A DNA stretch of 35,480 nucleotides, taken from contig DRGL01000039.1 in the NCBI GenBank assembly GCA_011050085.1, positions 1 through 35,480 on the forward strand, written 5' to 3'. Origin of the DNA: Pricia antarctica (GTDB taxonomy: Bacteria > Bacteroidota > Bacteroidia > Flavobacteriales > Flavobacteriaceae). A program made the translations under genes and the position numbers. Shown here piece by piece: positions 8,319-23,944 of this stretch. Each line of letters starts with the position of its first letter. The stretch's first letter is position 1. The notes beneath the pieces were generated by a model, which saw nothing but the letters and a program-made list of their open reading frames with translations, was not told the origin of the DNA and did no database searches.

Positions 8319-8516
8319 TTAATGTCCTTTTTTCTCAACATCCTCATCCACGATGATTCTTTGTTCGGGAATGACAATCAATAAAAATCGCACACAGCTT
8401 GGATTTCTGCAAGCCCAAACCTGTATGCTCGCAATAGCTCCGACTATATCAGTTGCCGACTGATTAAACCTGTCCAGCGCGGTCTTGCAACTATGGCACA
8501 CGGGTTCGATTCTCAT
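8319..8516 (-). CDS. Small Cys-rich, probable zinc-binding protein (65 aa)
   Basis: ATG at 8516 overlaps the stop of the preceding mini-gene as ATGA. Two Cys pairs (VCHSC near the N-terminus, ACRNPSC near residue 36) could hold a zinc ion; the C-terminus IPEQRIIVDEDVEKKGH is acidic then basic. No named family recognised. Confidence 0.75.
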   Translation of the reverse strand: MRIEPVCHSCKTALDRFNQSATDIVGAIASIQVWACRNPSCVRFLLIVIPEQRIIVDEDVEKKGH

Positions 8517-11070: not shown

Positions 11071-11168
11071 TATTTATCTCCTTTTTTTATTGTCATACAT
11101 CGTATTGCAAATAGCATAATACACAAAATGATAAACCAATAAGAACCATAAGCTATAATTTCGTCCAT
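11070..11168 (-). CDS. Tiny single-pass membrane protein (32 aa)
   Basis: Reads MDEIIAYGSYWFIILCIMLF and ends TIKKGDK. One strong hydrophobic segment (YWFIILCIMLFAI) followed by a basic tail gives an N-out/C-in prediction. It starts inside the 3' end of the NeuB-like gene (16-bp overlap) and its TAA overlaps the ATG of the methyltransferase gene (TAATG). The ribosome binding site is weak, so it may depend on coupling. It might instead be only the spacer carrying the AAAAGGAG site of the next gene. Confidence 0.5.
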   Translation of the reverse strand: MDEIIAYGSYWFIILCIMLFAIRCMTIKKGDK

Positions 11169-11857
11169 TGTAGTGAAAACTTGCACATCTCCTCCAACTC
11201 CTTCGGGTCTGCCGACAATTCGTGATCGCGGAACTTGCTGTAATTATGGTCGAGCGTAAAATGTTTTTCGATAACCGTCGCGCCGATTATCATTGCTTCG
11301 ATTGATTTTGACACGCCAATAAAATGATCGCTGAATCCAATCTTTTTATATAGCCGTTTCATTTGCATCATCTTATTGAACATCGGCAATTGCGCTGGAT
11401 ATTCATTGACGCAATGCAACATAGTCGATTTTTTTATTCCAAGCATTTCAATCTCTTTAAACCCCATCATATACGGGACCGAAATGAATGTATGGTCACT
11501 ATCCAATCCCGATTGTTCAATAAATTTTTTCGTGCAATGGCGCGCGGGAATCTTGTGGTATTTTTCAAGACCCAGCAAATCCTCGTATTCTCTACTCCAA
11601 ATTGAAAAGAATACGGGTATCTCAATCTGTTCGCCGAAATAAAATAATTCCTTATGCTCTTTCATGCTCAATATGAATTTCTCGTATTTCTTAATATCCC
11701 GTTTCGTTCGCGCGAACCCCTGCGCATTTCCTGCTTGCAATTTCACCGCATCGGCACCGCAATTCCTCGCAATAATAATCATTTTTTTGGCAATTTTCAA
11801 ATTGCCCTCATGGTTATTGCCAATTTCTGCAATTATGAACGGTTTTTCTTGCGTCAT
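11153..11857 (-). CDS. NeuB/SpsE-family sialic-acid-type synthase, short form (234 aa)
   Basis: The protein has the full run of NeuB-family motifs: AEIGNNHEGN (10-19), GADAVKLQ (34-41), LHCVNEYP (147-154), IGFSDH (173-178), GATVIEKHFTL (192-202) and RDHELSADP (210-218). Family members condense phosphoenolpyruvate with an N-acyl hexosamine to make a nonulosonic acid such as sialic, legionaminic or pseudaminic acid. Usual length is about 340, so this copy lacks the C-terminal SAF/antifreeze-like domain and has a shortened barrel around residues 50-145. Activity is therefore uncertain. The nearby SpsF-like cytidylyltransferase would be the natural next enzyme (SpsE/SpsF pairing). Confidence 0.85.
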   Translation of the reverse strand: MTQEKPFIIAEIGNNHEGNLKIAKKMIIIARNCGADAVKLQAGNAQGFARTKRDIKKYEKFILSMKEHKELFYFGEQIEIPVFFSIWSREYEDLLGLEKYHKIPARHCTKKFIEQSGLDSDHTFISVPYMMGFKEIEMLGIKKSTMLHCVNEYPAQLPMFNKMMQMKRLYKKIGFSDHFIGVSKSIEAMIIGATVIEKHFTLDHNYSKFRDHELSADPKELEEMCKFSLQWTKL

Positions 11858-11862
11858 ACGTT

Positions 11863-12012
11863 TTACAAATGTTTCGGTCTGTCGATAATTGAATGCGTCA
11901 GCATCTTTTTATCGTCCGGCAATAAATCATCAATCATCTTTTCGATGACCGCCAGCTCATCGCGCACTCGCCTTAAGTTTGCTATAATTAATTCCGACTT
12001 ATTTATTGGCAT
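11863..12012 (-). CDS. Mini-gene, helical hypothetical (49 aa)
   Basis: ATG at 12012 overlaps the upstream TAA (TAATG). Reads MPINKSELIIANLRRVRDEL, AVIEKMIDDLLPDDKK and ends SIIDRPKHL. A coiled-coil-like helix fills residues 5-33. It ends five bases before the NeuB-like ATG. No family recognised. Confidence 0.65.
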   Translation of the reverse strand: MPINKSELIIANLRRVRDELAVIEKMIDDLLPDDKKMLTHSIIDRPKHL

Positions 12013-12245
12013 TATATCTCTTTCGTCGTGGTCGTGTATATAGTGAAAATTTTATTCCGAACGTCCCTGGGTAACACCTCTTTTATTCTCTGCCTCTTGC
12101 TTGCGCCCAGCCCTTTCAGACCATACATAACCTGCGATAAATACGATTGCGATACGCCAATCTCACCGGCAAACCATTTCAGGTTACTCGTTTTTCTGAT
12201 ATAAACGACTTCTTTTAGTAAGGCAACGTCGAGTCCGAATTTCAT
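12012..12245 (-). CDS. Small helix-turn-helix DNA-binding protein (77 aa)
   Basis: Residues about 20-60 form a Cro/C1-type helix-turn-helix (NLKWFAGEIGVSQSYLSQVM then YGLKGLGASKRQRIKEVL). The length and position at the edge of the accessory module fit a small regulator, for example of the glycan genes that follow. No target site can be assigned. ATG at 12245 lacks a clear ribosome binding site and follows the upstream stop directly. Confidence 0.72.
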   Translation of the reverse strand: MKFGLDVALLKEVVYIRKTSNLKWFAGEIGVSQSYLSQVMYGLKGLGASKRQRIKEVLPRDVRNKIFTIYTTTTKEI

Positions 12246-12611
12246 TTAATATGAATGTTTGACAAACAATTTTTCAGCTTTATTAGCCGCCTGGTGTTTC
12301 AGCCATTTTTTGTTGCGCGAGTCAATCGGATACTTTATGACAACCTGTCTTTTAAAATCGTCGACGACTTCCTGCCAGCATCGCCGCTTAATATCAATAA
12401 CTATTCTCACGATGTCGAGCTGGATGTCGCCTAATTTTTTGTTTCGTTTTGAAAACTGTGTCAATGACCGCTGGAGCCGCCTATGCAACAGCAGGCATTT
12501 TTTTATTGACATCCGCATGAACATGCGACGCATAGTCGGTCGCCGAACCCGATGCTCATTTGCCATTGCGCTTATTTCAGCGTCAGTATAAAGGTCGCCG
12601 CCGGTGTTCAT
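12246..12611 (-). CDS. Hypothetical basic helical protein (121 aa)
   Basis: ATG at 12611 overlaps the upstream stop (ATGA) with AAGGATAAT as binding site. The protein is very basic (MRRMFMRMSIKKCLLLHRRL, KRNKKLG, KRRCWQEVVDDFKRQ) and helical, ending in WLKHQAANKAEKLFVKHSY. The charge suggests nucleic-acid binding. I recognise no family. Confidence 0.7.
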   Translation of the reverse strand: MNTGGDLYTDAEISAMANEHRVRRPTMRRMFMRMSIKKCLLLHRRLQRSLTQFSKRNKKLGDIQLDIVRIVIDIKRRCWQEVVDDFKRQVVIKYPIDSRNKKWLKHQAANKAEKLFVKHSY

Positions 12612-13081
12612 ATTATCCTTACTAAAAAAGCAATGTGCGGTCTATCAGAAAACGCCCAATTAATCCCTTTGCCGGTGAAATTATTTTTACCAATACTAAC
12701 ACATTTCGGCACCCACATTTTCCATTTATTTGAATATACCATTAACCCTGGTCTTATAATGCAAACGTGCCCATGTTCCTCGCCCTTGCTATATGCCAGA
12801 ACAACGCACCCTTGATTCGCAAAATGCTGTGCTTTACCCATACCTTTTGTCAATACCGGGTTTTTTGAATCATCCCATTCTTTATCGTTTTCTATAACTT
12901 CAATTATATCATTCGCTAACAAACCGAGAAATTTATCATATTTATAGAACCCGCAAATTCCCGATACAAATAAATTACAGTACGTTGCAACACCAGACGC
13001 TCTCACTTTTTCAAAAGTTCCGTGTGAATAAACATCATAAGATTGACCTATCGCATCAAGAAGTTTCGGAACGCTTGCCAT
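12608..13081 (-). CDS. Papain-fold (NlpC/P60-CHAP-like) hydrolase, putative cell-wall enzyme (157 aa)
   Basis: The order Cys then His fits a non-permuted CHAP/NlpC-type enzyme: C35 in VATYCNLFVSGIC as nucleophile and H105 in EEHGHVCIIRPG as base, followed by KCVSIGKNNFTGKGINWAF, a segment I associate with phage-encoded peptidoglycan hydrolases. No signal peptide. I start at the ATG at 13081 behind GAGGTGG, not the TTG four codons upstream. It sits among sugar-biosynthesis genes, away from the other hydrolase (27189-27806) and the holin-like gene. It may be an endolysin, or may trim envelope polymers as part of the accessory module. Confidence 0.7.
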   Translation of the reverse strand: MASVPKLLDAIGQSYDVYSHGTFEKVRASGVATYCNLFVSGICGFYKYDKFLGLLANDIIEVIENDKEWDDSKNPVLTKGMGKAQHFANQGCVVLAYSKGEEHGHVCIIRPGLMVYSNKWKMWVPKCVSIGKNNFTGKGINWAFSDRPHIAFLVRII

Positions 13082-13089
13082 AAACCACC

Positions 13090-14460
13090 TCAATTAAATT
13101 TATTTTTACTCATGTCGCCGAATAGCTGGTTGAATATATGTTTTCGCTCGCCGGTATTGTTAGTGCTTAAATTTTTATCGTGTTGACGGTAATAAAAACA
13201 CGGATGCTCGACATACGAAATCTTTAATTCGTAGTGTTCTTTGATGCGGTGGTAAAGGTCAAGCGAATCCCAATGTCTCAATCCCTCTTTAAATTTCAAC
13301 TCGTTAATCGTCTTTTTATTCATTAATGCACAGCCCGCATGATGATGAATATTACCCCCAACAATGGCTTTGGTTTTCTCCGACGCAGTATCACCTTCCC
13401 GGCTCACCCAATAATTCGGGTATATGATAACCGCATCTTCTTCTTTGATTTTTTTCAACATATGTACTATGCTGTGCGGAGAAATCATATCATCAGCATC
13501 AACTCTCATAATATATTTTCCTCTTGCCCGCGCCAAAGCAATATTCGAGCTGGATGCAAGCCCGATATTTTTCTGGTTCACCATGACGGTCGCCTTTGGC
13601 ATTTTCCATAACGCCAACTGTGTAATTGCTTTGCTTAAAGAATCGTCGTTGCTTTTATCATCAACCAGGATATATTCGACCGCCGTCTTTGAAACATTAA
13701 TCGACATTATGATTGACGAAATACAATCGGTTATCCACTTACTTGCGTTTTTCATGCAGGTGTATATCGTAATTTCAGGCAATTTATTATATTCCATAAT
13801 CATCTGGTTGCCGTCTATGTATTCGCAAATCGAATCAACGGTCGCGTCATTGCCTGTTTGCCGCAACACCGCCTCCAACACCACTAAATCCTCGGCGTAA
13901 TCCAGTACGAGACGATACGGACGCTGAATTGATTTGCGCGGTTCAAGAATAATCGGTTTTTTTCCTTTGACAAAATAAGATATGTGCTCAACAGGATATT
14001 TAATTTCTTTCGCTCGGTTGAGAATGGTCTCTGCCAGCATCACCTCAACGCCCGCGCCCTCGATTATCGAAGGTGTGCACCCGTAGCTTGCGCTCACGCG
14101 TTTGACTTCATTCAAAAGGTCAACCATTGTTTTCCCGTCTATAATAATATCGTCATGCGTGATGCGGATAACATATTTATATTTATTCTCTTTGAGGAAT
14201 TTTTCCATCCGATGCAATGGGCTTTCAGGACTGCCTGAAATAATCTTCGCGCCGCGTTGCCAGCAAATTTCTCGATACTCCTCCATGTATTCATATTCAA
14301 TGCCGTCAGGCACCGCAACAACAACATCAAAATTGAGTCCATGCACCCTGTCAAGGATATGAGACAGCACACGCTTGCCGTTTATCTCGGCAAAGCATTT
14401 TTCTTTTATCCGCCGCGAATATGGTGTTGAACAGATAATGATTACAGCAAGGTCATTCAA
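13090..14460 (-). CDS. Fusion of SpsF-like cytidylyltransferase and GT2 glycosyltransferase (456 aa)
   Basis: Residues about 1-215 match SpsF/CMP-sugar cytidylyltransferases: an N-terminal nucleotide-binding loop region STPYSRRIKEKCFAEINGK (11-29), VIRITHDDIIID (97-108, equivalent to the VTGDxPLxD region) and PYRLVLDYAEDLVVLEAVL (181-199). Residues about 229-440 are a GT-A family 2 glycosyltransferase: ITIYTCMKNASKWI, VEYILVDDKSND (261-272), NIGLASSSNIALARARGKY and a DADD metal motif at 321-324. One polypeptide could thus activate a sugar with CTP and transfer a sugar. Start is a TTG at 14460 with GAGAGGTG; an in-frame stop lies five codons upstream. The acceptor is unknown. Confidence 0.85.
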   Translation of the reverse strand: MNDLAVIIICSTPYSRRIKEKCFAEINGKRVLSHILDRVHGLNFDVVVAVPDGIEYEYMEEYREICWQRGAKIISGSPESPLHRMEKFLKENKYKYVIRITHDDIIIDGKTMVDLLNEVKRVSASYGCTPSIIEGAGVEVMLAETILNRAKEIKYPVEHISYFVKGKKPIILEPRKSIQRPYRLVLDYAEDLVVLEAVLRQTGNDATVDSICEYIDGNQMIMEYNKLPEITIYTCMKNASKWITDCISSIIMSINVSKTAVEYILVDDKSNDDSLSKAITQLALWKMPKATVMVNQKNIGLASSSNIALARARGKYIMRVDADDMISPHSIVHMLKKIKEEDAVIIYPNYWVSREGDTASEKTKAIVGGNIHHHAGCALMNKKTINELKFKEGLRHWDSLDLYHRIKEHYELKISYVEHPCFYYRQHDKNLSTNNTGERKHIFNQLFGDMSKNKFN

Positions 14461-15148: not shown

Positions 15149-15324
15149 TCCTCATTCACCTTTGTCATCGCTTTTGCTATAACCCAAACGGCGCATTTAT
15201 ATTCCTCGCCCATGTACCATCCACAGTTTGTCAGCATACACTCTTGCTGGACTTCAACTATCTCGCCTGTGTTCGGGTTTTTGTCGTAATTTTTTATCAA
15301 TGGACACTTCGGGCTTTCAATCAT
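15145..15324 (-). CDS. Mini-gene, Cys-rich hypothetical (59 aa)
   Basis: ATG at 15324 overlaps the radical SAM gene's TGA (ATGA) and its own TGA overlaps the next ATG. Reads MIESPKCPLIKNYDKNPNTG, EIVEVQQECMLTNCGWYM and ends AVWVIAKAMTKVNEE. The four Cys (C7, C29, C34, C44) with a GWY turn suggest metal binding, as in the 35-residue protein at 14457-14564. Real gene by composition and coupling; function unknown. Confidence 0.72.
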   Translation of the reverse strand: MIESPKCPLIKNYDKNPNTGEIVEVQQECMLTNCGWYMGEEYKCAVWVIAKAMTKVNEE

Positions 15325-16247
15325 AACTCACGATCCTGTACATGGTCTCGGCGCGCATCAACGTAAGACATAAAGCTGGTGCAGGTCTTACATAATTCCA
15401 TATCATTCGCCAGGTCATTTCTCAAATTCTCGCGCAATTCATTCATGCGACTGCCATGCCAGATTTCAAGTAAGGACTGATGATATACGTCTCCGACCTG
15501 ATATTTTTCGTCGTAATCAACGCAACATGCAAAGACCTTCCCGTCGGTAGCAACAACCAGTCGTTGACTCGGATAACCACAATACGTTCGTGTCGGTCTA
15601 TGCCTGCCATCATATTTTTTACTTCGGTCAAAGCAATAGTGTTCCGACACCTTGACATACCCGTCACCGAATATCACCCGCACCATTTCTTTGAAGTCCT
15701 CTTTTTTATTCACGTCCGTAATTATTCGTCTGACCCAAACATTATCGTGCCCCATTTCAACTACACGCCTAATCGTTTCGATAACGGTGCGTATGCCACC
15801 ACGTTTACGCATCTTGGCGTATAACTCTTTGTTCAACGTGTCAACGCTGAACATGCATTTCGTGGTGTACTTCAATCCCTCGATTGATTTATCAGGACAG
15901 TTCCCGTTCGTGTTAATCAATATGTCGTAGAATACCTTGCCCCGGACTGCAAACTGCATTATTTTCGTAAATTCTTGGTGTAAGGTCGGTTCGCCTCGCC
16001 AGTTAAATTTAACCGCAGGAATGCCTATATTCTTTGCCTCAGTAATCAAACGCATGGCTAAATCAAAAGGCATGAAACTGTTGACGACGTTTTTTCTATG
16101 GTCTTGGGTAGGAACGAAACAGGTCGGGCATTGAAGATTGCATACAGCAGACAATTCAATGTCAAGGTTCAGAGGTATCGGCGGCATCTTCTGCATGCTG
16201 TCATCCCATGCCTGCCGGTAGTGTGAAAAAGTAGAATAGTATTTCAC
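15321..16247 (-). CDS. Radical SAM / SPASM domain protein (308 aa)
   Basis: The radical SAM cluster motif is C36-x3-C40-x2-C43 in AVCNLQCPTCF, followed by a KFNWRGEPTLHQEF motif (GEP, SAM binding) at 80-93 and INTNGN. The C-terminal SPASM region has C223, C241/C242, C286 and C289 (TYCGYPSQRLVVATDGKVFA, VGDVYHQSLLEIW), expected to bind an auxiliary iron-sulphur cluster. Such proteins mature peptides or modify sugars and other small molecules; no precursor peptide is obvious. The setting beside sugar-nucleotide genes makes a carbohydrate substrate possible. GTG start at 16247 has only a weak binding site. It needs an anaerobic or reducing cytoplasm. Confidence 0.87.
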   Translation of the reverse strand: MKYYSTFSHYRQAWDDSMQKMPPIPLNLDIELSAVCNLQCPTCFVPTQDHRKNVVNSFMPFDLAMRLITEAKNIGIPAVKFNWRGEPTLHQEFTKIMQFAVRGKVFYDILINTNGNCPDKSIEGLKYTTKCMFSVDTLNKELYAKMRKRGGIRTVIETIRRVVEMGHDNVWVRRIITDVNKKEDFKEMVRVIFGDGYVKVSEHYCFDRSKKYDGRHRPTRTYCGYPSQRLVVATDGKVFACCVDYDEKYQVGDVYHQSLLEIWHGSRMNELRENLRNDLANDMELCKTCTSFMSYVDARRDHVQDREL

Positions 16248-17890: not shown

Positions 17891-18045
17891 CGCTTACCCC
17901 GCTTCTTTTTCGGCTTGACCAATTCACCCCAAATAAAATTCAGGTGTTTGCATTTTGCACATTCAAAAAATTGTACTGTGCAATAGCCGATGTACTTAGC
18001 TTGTCTTGTTTTCTTCCGCCTCTTGGGCTTCCGGGGGTTCTTCAT
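17887..18045 (-). CDS. Mini-gene, basic zinc-finger-like protein (52 aa)
   Basis: Reads MKNPRKPKRRKKTRQAKYIG, a Cys cluster YCTVQFFECAKCKHLN, and a basic tail LVKPKKKRGKR. ATG at 18045 overlaps the pentapeptide gene's TGA. Three Cys plus His could bind zinc; the two basic ends suggest RNA or DNA binding. It is the first of four consecutive mini-genes with an MKK/RRKK-type start. Confidence 0.7.
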   Translation of the reverse strand: MKNPRKPKRRKKTRQAKYIGYCTVQFFECAKCKHLNFIWGELVKPKKKRGKR

Positions 18046-18815
18046 GGTTCCTCTTTTATTTTTAATAAATTCTCTACGTGTTTTTTCGTGTATTTTTTTA
18101 ATACTTTTAATTTCTTTACGCGAAATTTACCGTCAGTCGTATATGGTATACACACAATATCTTTTGCATCAAATTCTACCTCAATAAATGTAATACCGTT
18201 TTTATTTATGGAGTCATTATAACACCATGAAAGCGTAGCCACATTTAATCCTTTTCCACAATTTACAAAAGGATTAGTATCATAATCTCGCGTTTCATAT
18301 TCTTTATCAGTAACATATTCTTTATTTTGATATGGCGATCTACCGTCCTTTAAATATTTCCATGCCCGAATTGTGCCATTAACATTTTGTATTAAATCTA
18401 AATCAGGTCGGTAAAATATTTCTGCTCCCTGCAAGTATGCTCCCTGCAAGTCTGCTCCCTGCAAGTATGCTCCCCGCAAGTATGCTCCCTGCAAGTCTGC
18501 TCCCTGCAAGTATGCTCCCTGCAAGTCTGCTCCCCGCAAGTATGCTCCCTGCAAGTCTGCTCCCTGCAAGTATGCTTTCCGCAAGTCTGCTCCCTGCAAG
18601 TCTGCTCCCCGCAAGTATGCTTCCTGCAAGTCTGCTCTCTGCAAGTCTGCTCCCTGCAAGTATGCTCCCTGCAAGTCTGCTTTCCGCAAGTCTGCTCCCT
18701 GCAAGTCTGCTTTCCGCAAGTCTGCTCCCTGCAAGTCTGCTCTCTTCCCATCTTTTTCATCAGCAAACCACTTTTTATGCTTCTTTAAAATTTCTTGTAA
18801 TTCTGCATGATTCAT
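18042..18815 (-). CDS. Pentapeptide-repeat protein with conserved C-terminal domain (257 aa)
   Basis: Residues 26-130 are 21 uninterrupted A(D/Y)L(Q/R)(G/K/R/E) pentapeptides, which fold into a right-handed quadrilateral beta-helix; known members mimic DNA (Qnr, MfpA) or act as scaffolds. The C-terminal 120 residues (IRAWKYLKDGRSPYQNKEYV, FVNCGKGLNVATLSWCYND, DIVCIPYTTDGKFRVKKLKVL) form a separate domain of the kind found in many phage proteins of unknown function. The N-terminus HAELQEILKKHKKWFADEKD is the usual lead-in. DNA mimicry against gyrase or restriction enzymes is possible, unproven. Repeat number is likely variable between relatives. Confidence 0.88.
   Translation of the reverse strand: MNHAELQEILKKHKKWFADEKDGKRADLQGADLRKADLQGADLRKADLQGAYLQGADLQRADLQEAYLRGADLQGADLRKAYLQGADLQGAYLRGADLQGAYLQGADLQGAYLRGAYLQGADLQGAYLQGAEIFYRPDLDLIQNVNGTIRAWKYLKDGRSPYQNKEYVTDKEYETRDYDTNPFVNCGKGLNVATLSWCYNDSINKNGITFIEVEFDAKDIVCIPYTTDGKFRVKKLKVLKKYTKKHVENLLKIKEEP
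18426..18740 (-). repeat. 15-bp coding tandem repeat array (21 units)
   Basis: Near-identical 15-mers, plus-strand consensus TCTGCTCCCTGCAAG with TATGCT, CCCCGC and TTTCCGC variants, encode the pentapeptides. Because the period is a multiple of three and stop codons are absent, long open frames also appear in another minus frame and on the plus strand; these are artefacts. The near-identity indicates recent expansion by slippage or unequal recombination. Confidence 0.95.
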
Positions 18816-20685: not shown

Positions 20686-21212
20686 CCCACCTCCACCAGT
20701 TTTGAACACTTCTGAATATTTACTATTGCCATCCTCGGATTCTTAACCAGCGAGCATTGGAAGTCAACGCAGTTGCCGCACATCCGCAATATATTCATAA
20801 ACCGCATTTCGTCAAACCAATAAATCGTTGATTTTATAAATTTATTTTCAATCGGGTCGAAATGAATGATACCGTTTGCCCTGCCCGGATTCGTTTCCAA
20901 CAACCTGAACTCTCGATGATACTCCTCGCAGAATACTTTTAACTCCCCTGTCTCCATGTTACCGGTGCCGATGCTCATTGAACCCTTCTCGATTGTTTTT
21001 TTTACTGTTCTTAATTTTTCATATCGCACCGTTTCCGTCAATGACGCATTCCTGTCCAGGGTCAGCTTTATAGTAAAATACCTTTTAAAATCTTGTCGCG
21101 CCGTCTTAATTGCATCGCATCTATTACACACATTCGAGCCGCAATTACATCCACATATTAAACAGTTCACATATTTTTCAAACACAATGCTTTCAGCTTC
21201 CGCTTTTTCCAT
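20682..21212 (-). CDS. Hypothetical protein with N-terminal Cys cluster (176 aa)
   Basis: Residues 17-32 hold CLICGCNCGSNVCNRC, six Cys that could coordinate one or two zinc ions; a second group MCGNCVDFQCS lies near residue 145. Between them is an alpha/beta region (RYFTIKLTLDRNASLTETVR, GIIHFDPIENKFIKSTIYWF). Overlaps the replisome organizer gene by 20 bp. No family recognised; expression with replication genes suggests a nucleic-acid role. Confidence 0.72.
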   Translation of the reverse strand: MEKAEAESIVFEKYVNCLICGCNCGSNVCNRCDAIKTARQDFKRYFTIKLTLDRNASLTETVRYEKLRTVKKTIEKGSMSIGTGNMETGELKVFCEEYHREFRLLETNPGRANGIIHFDPIENKFIKSTIYWFDEMRFMNILRMCGNCVDFQCSLVKNPRMAIVNIQKCSKLVEVG

Positions 21213-21936
21213 CGGACTCCTCCTTGATAATTTTTCTAAATCTTTGTTCGTCTGACTCCTTCTGGATGGTCGGCTGTATCTTTTTTACTTCGTCTCGGTT
21301 CAGCCAGTTTAATATCGTGTAGTAGTGCGACTTATATTTATCACCCTTTGAGCCGATATGCCCATTTAACGCCTTGATATATTTATTTGTATAGAAATGT
21401 CCATATTCACTTAAAAGCGTCTGGTGTTCCCGGGCTATTAGTTTGACGAAATCAAGGTGAGTGTGCTTGGCCTCACTCTTTTTAGGATTAGGATTAGGAT
21501 TAGGATTAGGATTAGGATTAGGATTAAGGCGATTGTTGGTTTGTGTTGGCAAAGGTTGGCAAAGGTTGGCTAAAAGTTCCCTTGGTGGTTCTGGCGTTCT
21601 CCGTCGATGACGAGTTGGTACACCATCATCATTGACGCAATACTTGGCATTATGGGCATCGAATCGTACAAATACTGAATATATACGTCCGTCTTGTTGC
21701 CAGTATTTTAAAATTCCCTTATCTCCAAGTTCCTTTTGCCAGCTTTCGACAGCTTTAGCCGTAACCTTTGATTGTAAAGGATAGCATCGGCCTCTTATAA
21801 TAGCCGGCGTGGCCTCAAAGCACCCATAATCGTCAACCAGCAACAATATCCGGTAAAAATGTCTTTCCGCATGGACTGATAGCGTATTAAAATTCGGACT
21901 TGTTAAGATACTATCTTTTATGATCCTGTTTGGCAT
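21193..21936 (-). CDS. Phage replisome organizer / replication initiation protein (247 aa)
   Basis: The N-terminal 100 residues (MPNRIIKDSILTSPNFNTLS, RHFYRILLLVDDYGCFEATP, RGRCYPL) match the winged-helix start of phage replisome organizer proteins that bind the origin and recruit helicase loader. A (Asn-Pro)x7 linker at 138-151 joins it to a C-terminal helical domain (DFVKLIAREHQTLLSEYG, HYYTILNWLNRDE) of DnaD/DnaB-loader type. No phage helicase or polymerase is in the window, consistent with use of host enzymes. Origin repeats are often inside such genes; none was recognised apart from the linker hexamers. Confidence 0.82.
   Translation of the reverse strand: MPNRIIKDSILTSPNFNTLSVHAERHFYRILLLVDDYGCFEATPAIIRGRCYPLQSKVTAKAVESWQKELGDKGILKYWQQDGRIYSVFVRFDAHNAKYCVNDDGVPTRHRRRTPEPPRELLANLCQPLPTQTNNRLNPNPNPNPNPNPNPKKSEAKHTHLDFVKLIAREHQTLLSEYGHFYTNKYIKALNGHIGSKGDKYKSHYYTILNWLNRDEVKKIQPTIQKESDEQRFRKIIKEESDGKSGS
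21482..21526. repeat. Hexanucleotide microsatellite (TTAGGA)7
   Basis: Seven perfect TTAGGA units plus TTA on the plus strand; read on the minus strand as AATCCT codons they give the Asn-Pro linker of the replisome organizer. Unit loss or gain keeps the frame, so linker length can vary without breaking the gene. Confidence 0.97.
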
Positions 21937-22484
21937 CTTTGTTTTTTCCAGTTATGTAAAATACCACACATATAAGAAAACACATTACCTTCTGTGCATC
22001 TATTTTTTCGTTTCAGGTTGTCTATTGACATATTCATCGCCTCAATTATCTGATATTTATTAAATGTTTTTAAAAAATACTTAATACTTATTTTCCATTT
22101 GTCACCAAAAATATACTTATCATGTGTCCGCTTCGTCTTTTGAAATTTATTAAAAAAATAATATCCAAGCTCATTGATTATTTTTTCTGTTTCATTGTGC
22201 ATATCTTCAACGTATTTATAGTAAATTCTTGTTTGCTTTTTTTGTTCCTTGAGGGTTTTTATTGTATTCGACACGGACGCTGGCAACACGTCCAGAGGAA
22301 TATCTTTTTTCCCTCTGTTGCAGTCGAAACATGATGTAAGCAAATTATTTATATCATCACTTCCGCCTTTTGATTTTGGGATTAAATGGTCTATTTCGAG
22401 GATTATATTTGGCGGGTTTTTTCCACAATACCGGCAGGTGAAATTATCTCTTTTAAAAATCTCAAATCTTATTAATTTTTTCAT
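21918..22484 (-). CDS. HNH endonuclease (188 aa)
   Basis: Residues 5-61 are an HNH domain with structural zinc: FKRDNFTCRYCGKNPPN (C17, C20), LEIDHLIPKSKGG (D32-H33) and NLLTSCFDCNRGKKD (C52, C55). The C-terminal 120 residues are basic and helical (SIKYFLKTFNKYQIIEAMNM) and may bind DNA. Start taken at the ATG at 22484; the binding site is weak, and a structured RNA lies just upstream. It could be a free-standing homing enzyme or a packaging/recombination nuclease. Overlaps the replisome organizer start by 19 bp. Confidence 0.85.
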   Translation of the reverse strand: MKKLIRFEIFKRDNFTCRYCGKNPPNIILEIDHLIPKSKGGSDDINNLLTSCFDCNRGKKDIPLDVLPASVSNTIKTLKEQKKQTRIYYKYVEDMHNETEKIINELGYYFFNKFQKTKRTHDKYIFGDKWKISIKYFLKTFNKYQIIEAMNMSIDNLKRKNRCTEGNVFSYMCGILHNWKKQRCQTGS

Positions 22485-22496
22485 AAATAAAAATAC

Positions 22497-22593
22497 CCGA
22501 CAAGACACAAAGGTGCTACGGCACACTTGTGGTGGGCTGTTCCTTTGGAGGTCTTGCCGGATTTAATTGATTTGTTTATTAAGTACCGTAGCA
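22497..22593 (-). ncRNA. Candidate structured RNA with pseudoknot upstream of HNH gene
   Basis: On the minus strand a 10-bp stem (22551-22560 with 22497-22506, one G-U) encloses a perfect 6-bp stem CAAAGG/CCTTTG (22542-22547 with 22508-22513). The loop sequence GTGCCGTAGCA (22514-22524) pairs over 11 bp (one U-G) with TGCTACGGTAC at 22583-22593, outside the hairpin, giving a pseudoknot. A U-rich TATTTTTATTT follows, then the HNH ATG. This could be a leader regulator, part of a mobile element or a terminator-type switch. Confidence 0.55.
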
Positions 22594-22638
22594 TATTCCA
22601 ATCTTATAAAATTTCAATCGGATTGTAAAGAACTATTT

Positions 22639-22915: not shown

Positions 22916-23890
22916 TTATTTTTTATCCTTCGTTAAGTCCTGTATCACCATCCGCGCCGTCGGCACTTTTTTCGCATATTGTTTCTTTATATCGTCGGGG
23001 ATTTTGTATTCCGTGCGCTGGCTCGGCACTTGCTGAATCAGATATTTCCCCCCGACAATTATTTTTTCGATTCCTTTCGTTGTCGTCTTAATCTTGTCGT
23101 ACAGTTCGCCGTACTCTTTCGATATTGGTTTCAATTCCAGCATGCGGTCAATCGTGGTCTCGAATTCCTTGTTGTCGATTAATTCGGCGGGCTTGTTGAG
23201 CACATCCTGTAGGCATGTTAAACTGAACGGACACATGTCGCATATCGAGCTGTCGTATGGTATTCTGTTGGGATATGTCTTTGACTGAATGCCTTTGTAT
23301 GCCCGTTCGAGTCGCTGAAGAATTGCCTCGCACTCGCCCAGGTCAAGGTAGACCGGCAATAATTTCCAATGACCCAAGCAATCGGTCAGGATAAATAATC
23401 CCTGCTCGACGTTGTTGCCGAACATATACATCTGCAACTGCCGGATATATTTCCGTTGGTATGGTTTCTTCGACATATCGTCGAGTGTCTTTATTGCATT
23501 AAAGATATTAGGATTCATGCTTTTAATCTCGAAAGGGAAACGCGTCGCCCGGTCGATTTCGATAAAGCCATCAATCCTTCCCCTAGCGAGCATGACGCCG
23601 CCGATGCCTTTTATCTCGACGGGTTGCTGTGCCAGTATGACTTTAAAGCCCATGCCCAATAACTCCGAGACAACCTTCCGTTCTTGCTCATTGCCCTCAT
23701 TCAGCCGCGCCTGCACCTCCTCGTTGAACATCGCGCGCTCTTGCCAGTTCAATACCCCGTAGACCATCTGACGGTCGCATTCAGAAATATCGCTTAAAAT
23801 CATATTGTTTCGTGGGTATCTGCTGATTTTTTTCGACAATTCATGTTTGCGCTTGTTTACGATGCTGTCAATTAATACGTTTACATCCAT
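22916..23890 (-). CDS. Cas4-like / RecB-family PD-(D/E)XK nuclease (324 aa)
   Basis: The nuclease core has D107 in RGRIDGFIE, E121-x-K123 in FPFEIKSMN and a QLQMYMF (151-157) motif. C39 (SDISECDRQ) together with C217, C220 and C226 (SICDMCPFSLTC) would bind the 4Fe-4S cluster of Cas4/AddB-type enzymes. Phage homologues supply exonuclease for annealing-type recombination, replacing lambda Exo, and this gene directly follows the putative annealing protein. No CRISPR array or other cas gene is present. Start at 23890 (MDVNVLID) is preferred since AAAGGGG lies eight bases upstream; an ATG six codons earlier is possible. Confidence 0.83.
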   Translation of the reverse strand: MDVNVLIDSIVNKRKHELSKKISRYPRNNMILSDISECDRQMVYGVLNWQERAMFNEEVQARLNEGNEQERKVVSELLGMGFKVILAQQPVEIKGIGGVMLARGRIDGFIEIDRATRFPFEIKSMNPNIFNAIKTLDDMSKKPYQRKYIRQLQMYMFGNNVEQGLFILTDCLGHWKLLPVYLDLGECEAILQRLERAYKGIQSKTYPNRIPYDSSICDMCPFSLTCLQDVLNKPAELIDNKEFETTIDRMLELKPISKEYGELYDKIKTTTKGIEKIIVGGKYLIQQVPSQRTEYKIPDDIKKQYAKKVPTARMVIQDLTKDKK

Positions 23891-23944
23891 TGAAATTACC
23901 CCTTTCATTTGTCTTGTGGCTTTAGCTTTGCCACTTTTTAGCCA

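Follow-up and report, generated by a model that had tools for sequence, protein, structure and literature searches.

A leader-like RNA with loop-to-upstream pairing before the HNH and replication-initiator genes of a phage contig from Pricia antarctica

Results

The window, the whole 35,480-nucleotide contig of Pricia antarctica analysed here (DRGL01000039.1, assembly GCA_011050085.1), carries on its minus strand a putative structured RNA followed by an HNH endonuclease gene and, overlapping its stop codon, a replication gene. The features are, in 5' to 3' order:

22624..22629, minus strand: putative -35 element, TTTACA (sigma-70-like match)
22601..22606, minus strand: putative -10 element, TAAGAT (sigma-70-like match)
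22583..22593, minus strand: A, 5' segment, TGCTACGGTAC (sequence, RNAfold, shuffle test)
22561..22582, minus strand: L1, A/U-rich linker of 22 nt
22551..22560, minus strand: B, 5' arm of the terminator-like hairpin (outer stem), CCGGCAAGAC
22542..22547, minus strand: C, 5' arm of the inner stem, CAAAGG
22514..22524, minus strand: A', loop segment and partner of A, GTGCCGTAGCA, flush with C'
22508..22513, minus strand: C', 3' arm of the inner stem, CCTTTG
22497..22506, minus strand: B', 3' arm of the outer stem, GTCTTGTCGG
22485..22496, minus strand: U-rich tract, GTATTTTTATTT (sequence)
21918..22484, minus strand: HNH endonuclease gene (PF01844, E = 1.5e-13; phrog_14314)
21193..21936, minus strand: replication initiation/replisome organizer gene (phrog_13246, phrog_5810), overlapping the HNH stop

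The minus-strand sequence of this RNA is confirmed to hold all three helices. A sequence-only reading had described a 10-bp outer stem, a 6-bp inner stem and an 11-base complementarity between the loop and an upstream segment with one U-G, and all of these lie in the sequence: B and B' form 10 bp including one G-U, extendable to 12, and the A:A' duplex spans 11 bp, one U-G among them. RNAfold predicted both stems of the hairpin, outer and inner, at -29.4 kcal/mol, and the A:A' pairing was equalled in one of 5000 dinucleotide shuffles in which the upstream 75 nt were shuffled and the hairpin was held fixed. Across both strands of the window this layout scores highest (16.0; runner-up, 13.5). 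Automatic loop-pairing runs that scored the correct stem gave p=0.003 and p=0.005; one run mistook A/A' for the terminator stem and gave p=0.279 there. The same reading had held that the element is not a terminator of ordinary shape; we find, to the contrary, a GC-rich hairpin with a U-tract directly 3' of it, as in an intrinsic terminator, the hairpin having a large loop whose partner A lies near the inferred 5' end. Between the outer stem and the HNH start codon lie 12 nt. A tRNA search of the window found none, and no close relative of the window RNA was found. The promoter-like motif, the terminator-like U-rich stretch and the overlapping initiator gene behind HNH were added by the present analysis.

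Recurrence of the layout upstream of HNH genes was surveyed in 80 IMG/VR loci with HNH relatives (31-45% identity) and further loci, giving 118 after duplicate removal, the window included; the entries numbered 138 altogether, and 20 near-duplicate loci together with L075, whose start codon was not found, were removed before the 118. Set aside from the further loci were contigs already among the first 80, L137 and L142 (taken as copies of L136), and the HNH-motif-only matches L169-L175, L190-L201 and L203-L212. The order A - B - A' - B' - U-tract is present in many upstream stretches, with unrelated letters. The layout was assigned by eye at 39 of the 118 loci, among them the window, and 79 loci carry no assigned RNA; at 49 loci no terminator-like hairpin of the sought size lies within 110 nt upstream, and at one further locus no pairing was found. 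Median dimensions over the 39 assigned loci are 9 bp for A, 26 nt for L1, 25 nt for L2, 8 nt for L3 and 96 nt from A to B'. For 37 of the 39, a spacer of 0-38 nt (median 16) separates the stem from the HNH start codon, and it measures 8-38 nt in 34 of these 37 and 0-7 nt in L046, L026 and L019; in L041 and L039 a small gene separates the RNA from HNH. A U-tract of at least 5 T in 8 nt follows at 34/39 loci and is weak in L033, L046, L134, L143 and L016. Only three alignable pairs were found among the 39 RNAs by blastn (E<=0.001), a comparison that also missed a family alignable by MAFFT.

Similar layouts are found elsewhere, so the layout is not exclusive to the initiator operon. In an unselected test, in which the terminator hairpin was fixed, an upstream partner for its loop was scored and all given loci were run, loop pairing at p<=0.01 was found for 8 of 44 HNH-upstream hairpins versus 17 of 1136 control hairpins, a 12-fold excess over control terminators; at p<=0.05 the counts are 17/44 and 60/1136. 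Among the control hairpins are those of L041 and L039, which belong to the assigned RNAs, and some RNA regions read on the reverse strand. A strict scan of the 80 loci at a score of at least 12 had matches at 17 loci in the 11.8 kb scanned upstream of HNH (near-duplicates L042, L043 and L077 included) versus 92 matches in the rest of 932,606 bases; at a score of at least 14, there were 7 loci upstream of HNH, L077 included, versus 19 matches elsewhere. The strict-scan match differs from the assigned structure in L040, L042, L043 and L062. Permissive-helix scans had excessive background and gave way to the stricter ones, and duplexfold scoring of long stretches, which is noisy, reached p<=0.01 in only 6/56. 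Such a layout outside the operon occurs on the minus strand of L051 near 1632, on the strand opposite to HNH, where the RNA has a -10-like TAAGAT and lies downstream of a gene that by eye resembles a CI-type repressor.

The window HNH protein has 188 aa and matched only HNH families in Pfam. Its relatives at E<=1e-20 number four among 60 relative genomes, three of them weak and the fourth that of the window itself, and one among 296 genomes of the order, again the window's own. A same-strand ORF lies close behind HNH at 74 of the 118 loci; 63 of these ORFs and that of the window were scanned, and families of replication initiation proteins drew the most members, 22 of 64 for each of the leading two. 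In the corresponding upstream scan (29 of 37 ORFs plus the window) no family was matched by more than 4 of 30 members. The annotated phage Louie has its HNH gene flanked by a cII-like gene on one side and a replication initiation gene on the other. A search with the window's initiator gave one distant viral relative, L238, in which no such RNA was seen. Separately, 15 of the 64 replication proteins downstream of HNH matched phrog_5718, described as an HNH endonuclease, which perhaps reflects a domain common to HNH and initiator proteins.

Just 5' of A the window carries TTTACA-17-TAAGAT, with nine of 12 matches over the -35 and -10 elements at a spacing of 17, as scored against the sigma-70 consensus; transcription would start near 22594. 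A sigma-70-like or Bacteroidetes-type motif is located just 5' of A in 32 of 45 RNAs, versus 7.0 expected from shuffles. The 45 comprise the 39 eye-assigned RNAs and six later finds and, since the RNAs were selected by eye, these promoter and 5'-hairpin statistics describe a chosen set that includes family members. In some relatives the upstream partner sits in the loop of a 5' hairpin, so that the pairing is loop-loop: A lies inside such a loop at p<=0.05 in 10 of the 45 RNAs and, with family duplicates removed, in 9/38 (combined p 1.9e-5). No 5' hairpin around A was detected in the window (p=0.858).

Seven RNAs (L010, L025, L168, L227, L230, L232 and L234) form a family alignable by sequence, in which 98.1% of cells are paired and 14 of 30 pairs and 29 cells are altered on both sides. 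These changes fall in the long-range A:A' helix (4/9 pairs), the terminator stem (9/15) and the 5' hairpin (1/6). None of 500 shuffles reached the family's percentage paired, its count of changed pairs or its count of changed cells, and two of 500 reached its count of pair types. Slid versions of the structure gave 1-4 both-side-changed pairs; since L025 supplied the written structure, this comparison favours slide 0. L234 was found with a model of the other six that lacked the A:A' pairs, and its A and A' nonetheless pair. Outside this family, L243 and L245 have a common terminator stem (CCCTCAAG/CTTGAGGG), with A/A' changing from TCGCACT/GGTGCGA to TTCCGCC/GGCGGAA and pairing kept. The family model found no match in 395 genomes of the window's phylum, which tells little.

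Judged by gene order, the RNA is not an HNH element: in L236, L241, L259 and L234 it lies directly before an initiator-like gene with no HNH between. The L236 phage is 89% identical to the L004 phage upstream and 93% downstream, has nearly the same promoter, encodes an initiator-like protein 97% identical to that of L004, and lacks HNH. Homology between the two ends at the promoter and restarts at the initiator gene, and the RNA between consists of unrelated letters in the same layout. Conversely, L227 and L231 share a 143-nt stretch with the RNA at 99.3% identity, their initiator genes being 89% identical; in L227 a small ORF stands between the RNA and the initiator-like gene.

Relatives of the L060 initiator were examined at 20 loci, of which 13 show the RNA by scan and L246 by eye; five of the 13 (L239, L240, L242, L247, L248) are contigs of the HNH set. 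The 20 were drawn from 27 loci, leaving out L254-L257 (taken as L252 duplicates) and the partial L262, L263 and L265; L244 is cut off, and L250, L251, L252, L253 and L261 show no RNA. The RNA lies immediately before the initiator in L241 and L259, whereas a small gene of 69-77 codons intervenes in L243, L245, L246, L249 and L264; four of these five small genes were scanned and had no Pfam match. Another HNH-type gene (PF01844) follows the RNA in L258 and L260. L239 and L259 differ here by the HNH gene, which in the group of L239, L259 and L241 is the optional piece and lies 3' of the RNA. Matches to PHROGs replication families are strong in L060, L241 and L264, moderate in L025 and weak in L004, L236 and L234 (E 1e-4 to 4e-4). 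In L239 a 14-nt repeat stands on either side of the HNH gene (1468, 1991), and L259 has a single copy (1991), a possible footprint of insertion or deletion.

At gathering score neither the window nor any of 57 other phage loci (9+20+11+17) matched an Rfam family. Over the same window and 57 loci the covariance models of C4 antisense RNA (RF01695) and isrK (RF01394) gave 0 matches at gathering score, and phage P4 as positive control scored 74.9 bits for C4 and 60.8 bits for isrK. With a relaxed threshold the window matched only Lig_thermometer and Teg23, both under their gathering scores. The HEARO model (RF02033) gave no window match at gathering score. HEARO and the IscB omega RNA are RNAs upstream of an HNH gene; the window RNA differs from them in this negative search and in that RNAs of its type also exist without HNH. 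In the literature covered on HNH-linked or replication-leader RNAs, to which most subscription papers do not belong, we found no account of the element.

Attenuators of the pT181 type, which belong to plasmid rep genes, likewise precede a replication initiator, and their regulator is a countertranscript from the other strand. The OOP RNA of phage lambda is a short phage RNA linked to replication control and antisense to cII (PMC12197685), whereas the window RNA is on the operon strand. As described in PMC4825925, the P4 CI RNA (C4-type) pairs with seqA and seqC and thereby prematurely terminates the replication genes, and the short RNA IsrK of Gifsy-1 has a promoter and a terminator of its own, with read-through into a phage operon. 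Common to P4 and, by prediction, the window is pairing between RNA segments ahead of phage replication genes, and the likeness to IsrK would extend to promoter, terminator and read-through. Processing and trans action, as described for P4, would be conjecture for the window RNA; the genes downstream of IsrK differ, and its model is unmatched. A layout scan of P4 with wider limits found A-B-A'-B' at 8448 (TTCTCAC..GCTATCGCC..GTGAGAA..GGCGATAGC) with a score of 11.5, a level that chance reaches now and then. Given that Rfam matched neither the window nor the 57 loci, the window RNA may work like the P4 system with no family membership implied.

Discussion

We favour, with a probability of roughly 0.57, the reading that the RNA is a leader of about 100 nt acting as a transcription attenuator of a phage replication-initiator operon. 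RNA polymerase would start shortly 5' of A, copy A, the large-loop hairpin with A', and the U-tract, and then either stop, freeing a short RNA, or continue into the replication-initiator gene, with or without HNH before it. How often it terminates would be governed by A:A' pairing, which might help the large-looped hairpin to close or, alternatively, hold the loop and hinder closing. In the latter case a free short RNA that captured A would favour termination, a negative feedback. In L007 only 1 and 3 nt lie beside A', so that on geometric grounds both helices would be hardly compatible. The short distance from stem to HNH start codon (0-38 nt in 37/39) leaves little room for another promoter. 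Layout, promoter-like motif, U-tract, the compensatory changes of one family, gene order and the presence or absence of HNH can be read directly from the DNA; from them we infer transcription start and stop at these sites, and an effect of A:A' on termination together with its direction.

A tentative variant, to which we give distinctly less weight, is that the released short RNA acts in trans, its A or A' pairing with nascent leaders and shutting the replication operon off; the outcome would be negative feedback, copy control or superinfection immunity, like that of the P4 CI RNA. In its favour are the replacement of the RNA between homologous flanks by an unrelated one of the same layout (L004/L236), the converse case of L227 and L231 with near-identical RNA (99.3%) and more divergent initiator genes (89%), and the position of A, in some of the RNAs, within the loop of a 5' hairpin (combined p 1.9e-5, 38 RNAs). 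P4 and IsrK offer precedent (PMC4825925). A second match to the A' region between the stem and HNH codon 4, resembling P4 seqC, was found in L056, L059, L058, L005 and L034 (p<=0.04), but these are only 5/39 with about 1.6 expected at that threshold, the L034 match lies inside coding sequence, and the window has no second site (p=0.587). Moreover, there is just one clear cassette swap, and HNH differs there too, which makes it thin, and covariation is blind to cis versus trans. That the RNA is instead an independent small RNA gene, with targets among other phage or host RNAs and an operon that merely follows, appears unlikely; a promoter-like motif, a terminator-like end and the similar RNA on the opposite strand of L051 would fit it, whereas the position before an initiator operon recurs and the letters differ between loci, with three blastn pairs among 39 RNAs (E<=0.001, the MAFFT-aligned family being missed).

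Two further explanations fare worse. An ordinary strong insulating terminator whose complementarity arose by chance would account for the strong stem and U-tract, and most control terminators lack a loop partner, but loop pairing 12 times as frequent as among control terminators (p<=0.01) and the double compensatory changes in the A:A' helix of the family make this very improbable. That the RNA guides or partners the HNH nuclease, or marks where a mobile element ends, we consider barely credible: it adjoins an HNH gene in the window, and other HNH-type genes follow it in L258 and L260, yet it occurs with no HNH following and matches neither HEARO nor any other Rfam family. The guide and mobile-element ideas were dropped as contradicted by L236, L241, L259 and L234. 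The sequence-only reading had proposed a structured RNA with loop-to-upstream pairing that it did not recognise as a known riboswitch or intron; the negative Rfam search agrees with this, and an alignable family of similar RNAs shows compensatory changes. Its proposal that the RNA regulates the HNH gene is retained in so far as a regulatory role is plausible, but the tie to HNH fails on the four loci just named; for its alternative of a mobile-element end nothing was found, the optional piece in the L239/L259/L241 group being the HNH gene 3' of the RNA.

If the attenuator reading is right, RNA control of replication genes, described for P4-like elements, would extend to tailed phages of other groups, and such leaders would have been missed so far because their layout is conserved and their letters are not. 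A search rule would follow, namely to look immediately ahead of replication initiators for a terminator whose loop can pair with a segment 5' of it, and RNA-based phage immunity would become testable. More speculatively, and as an idea that we hold to be possible rather than probable, these RNAs may constitute a widespread, sequence-hypervariable immunity or copy-control system of tailed phages in which the short leader RNA of a phage would detect, through loop pairing, nascent leaders of the same type and stop the replication operon behind them; discrete A/A' types, exchangeable as cassettes, would then play at the RNA level the part of repressor immunity types.

The phage contig carries other genes of interest on the minus strand. 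A Cas4-domain exonuclease-like gene (22916-23908, phrog_1990) lies upstream of the RNA. A pentapeptide-repeat protein (18042-18815, PF00805) has two more frames open across its repeat, of 122 and 140 codons, and a radical SAM protein with a SPASM domain (15321-16247) is encoded amid phage genes. Genes at 11153-14460 suggest synthesis of a sialic-acid-like sugar: one belongs to the NeuB family (PF03102), and another encodes a protein that combines glycosyltransferase-2 with nucleotidyl/cytidylyltransferase domains.
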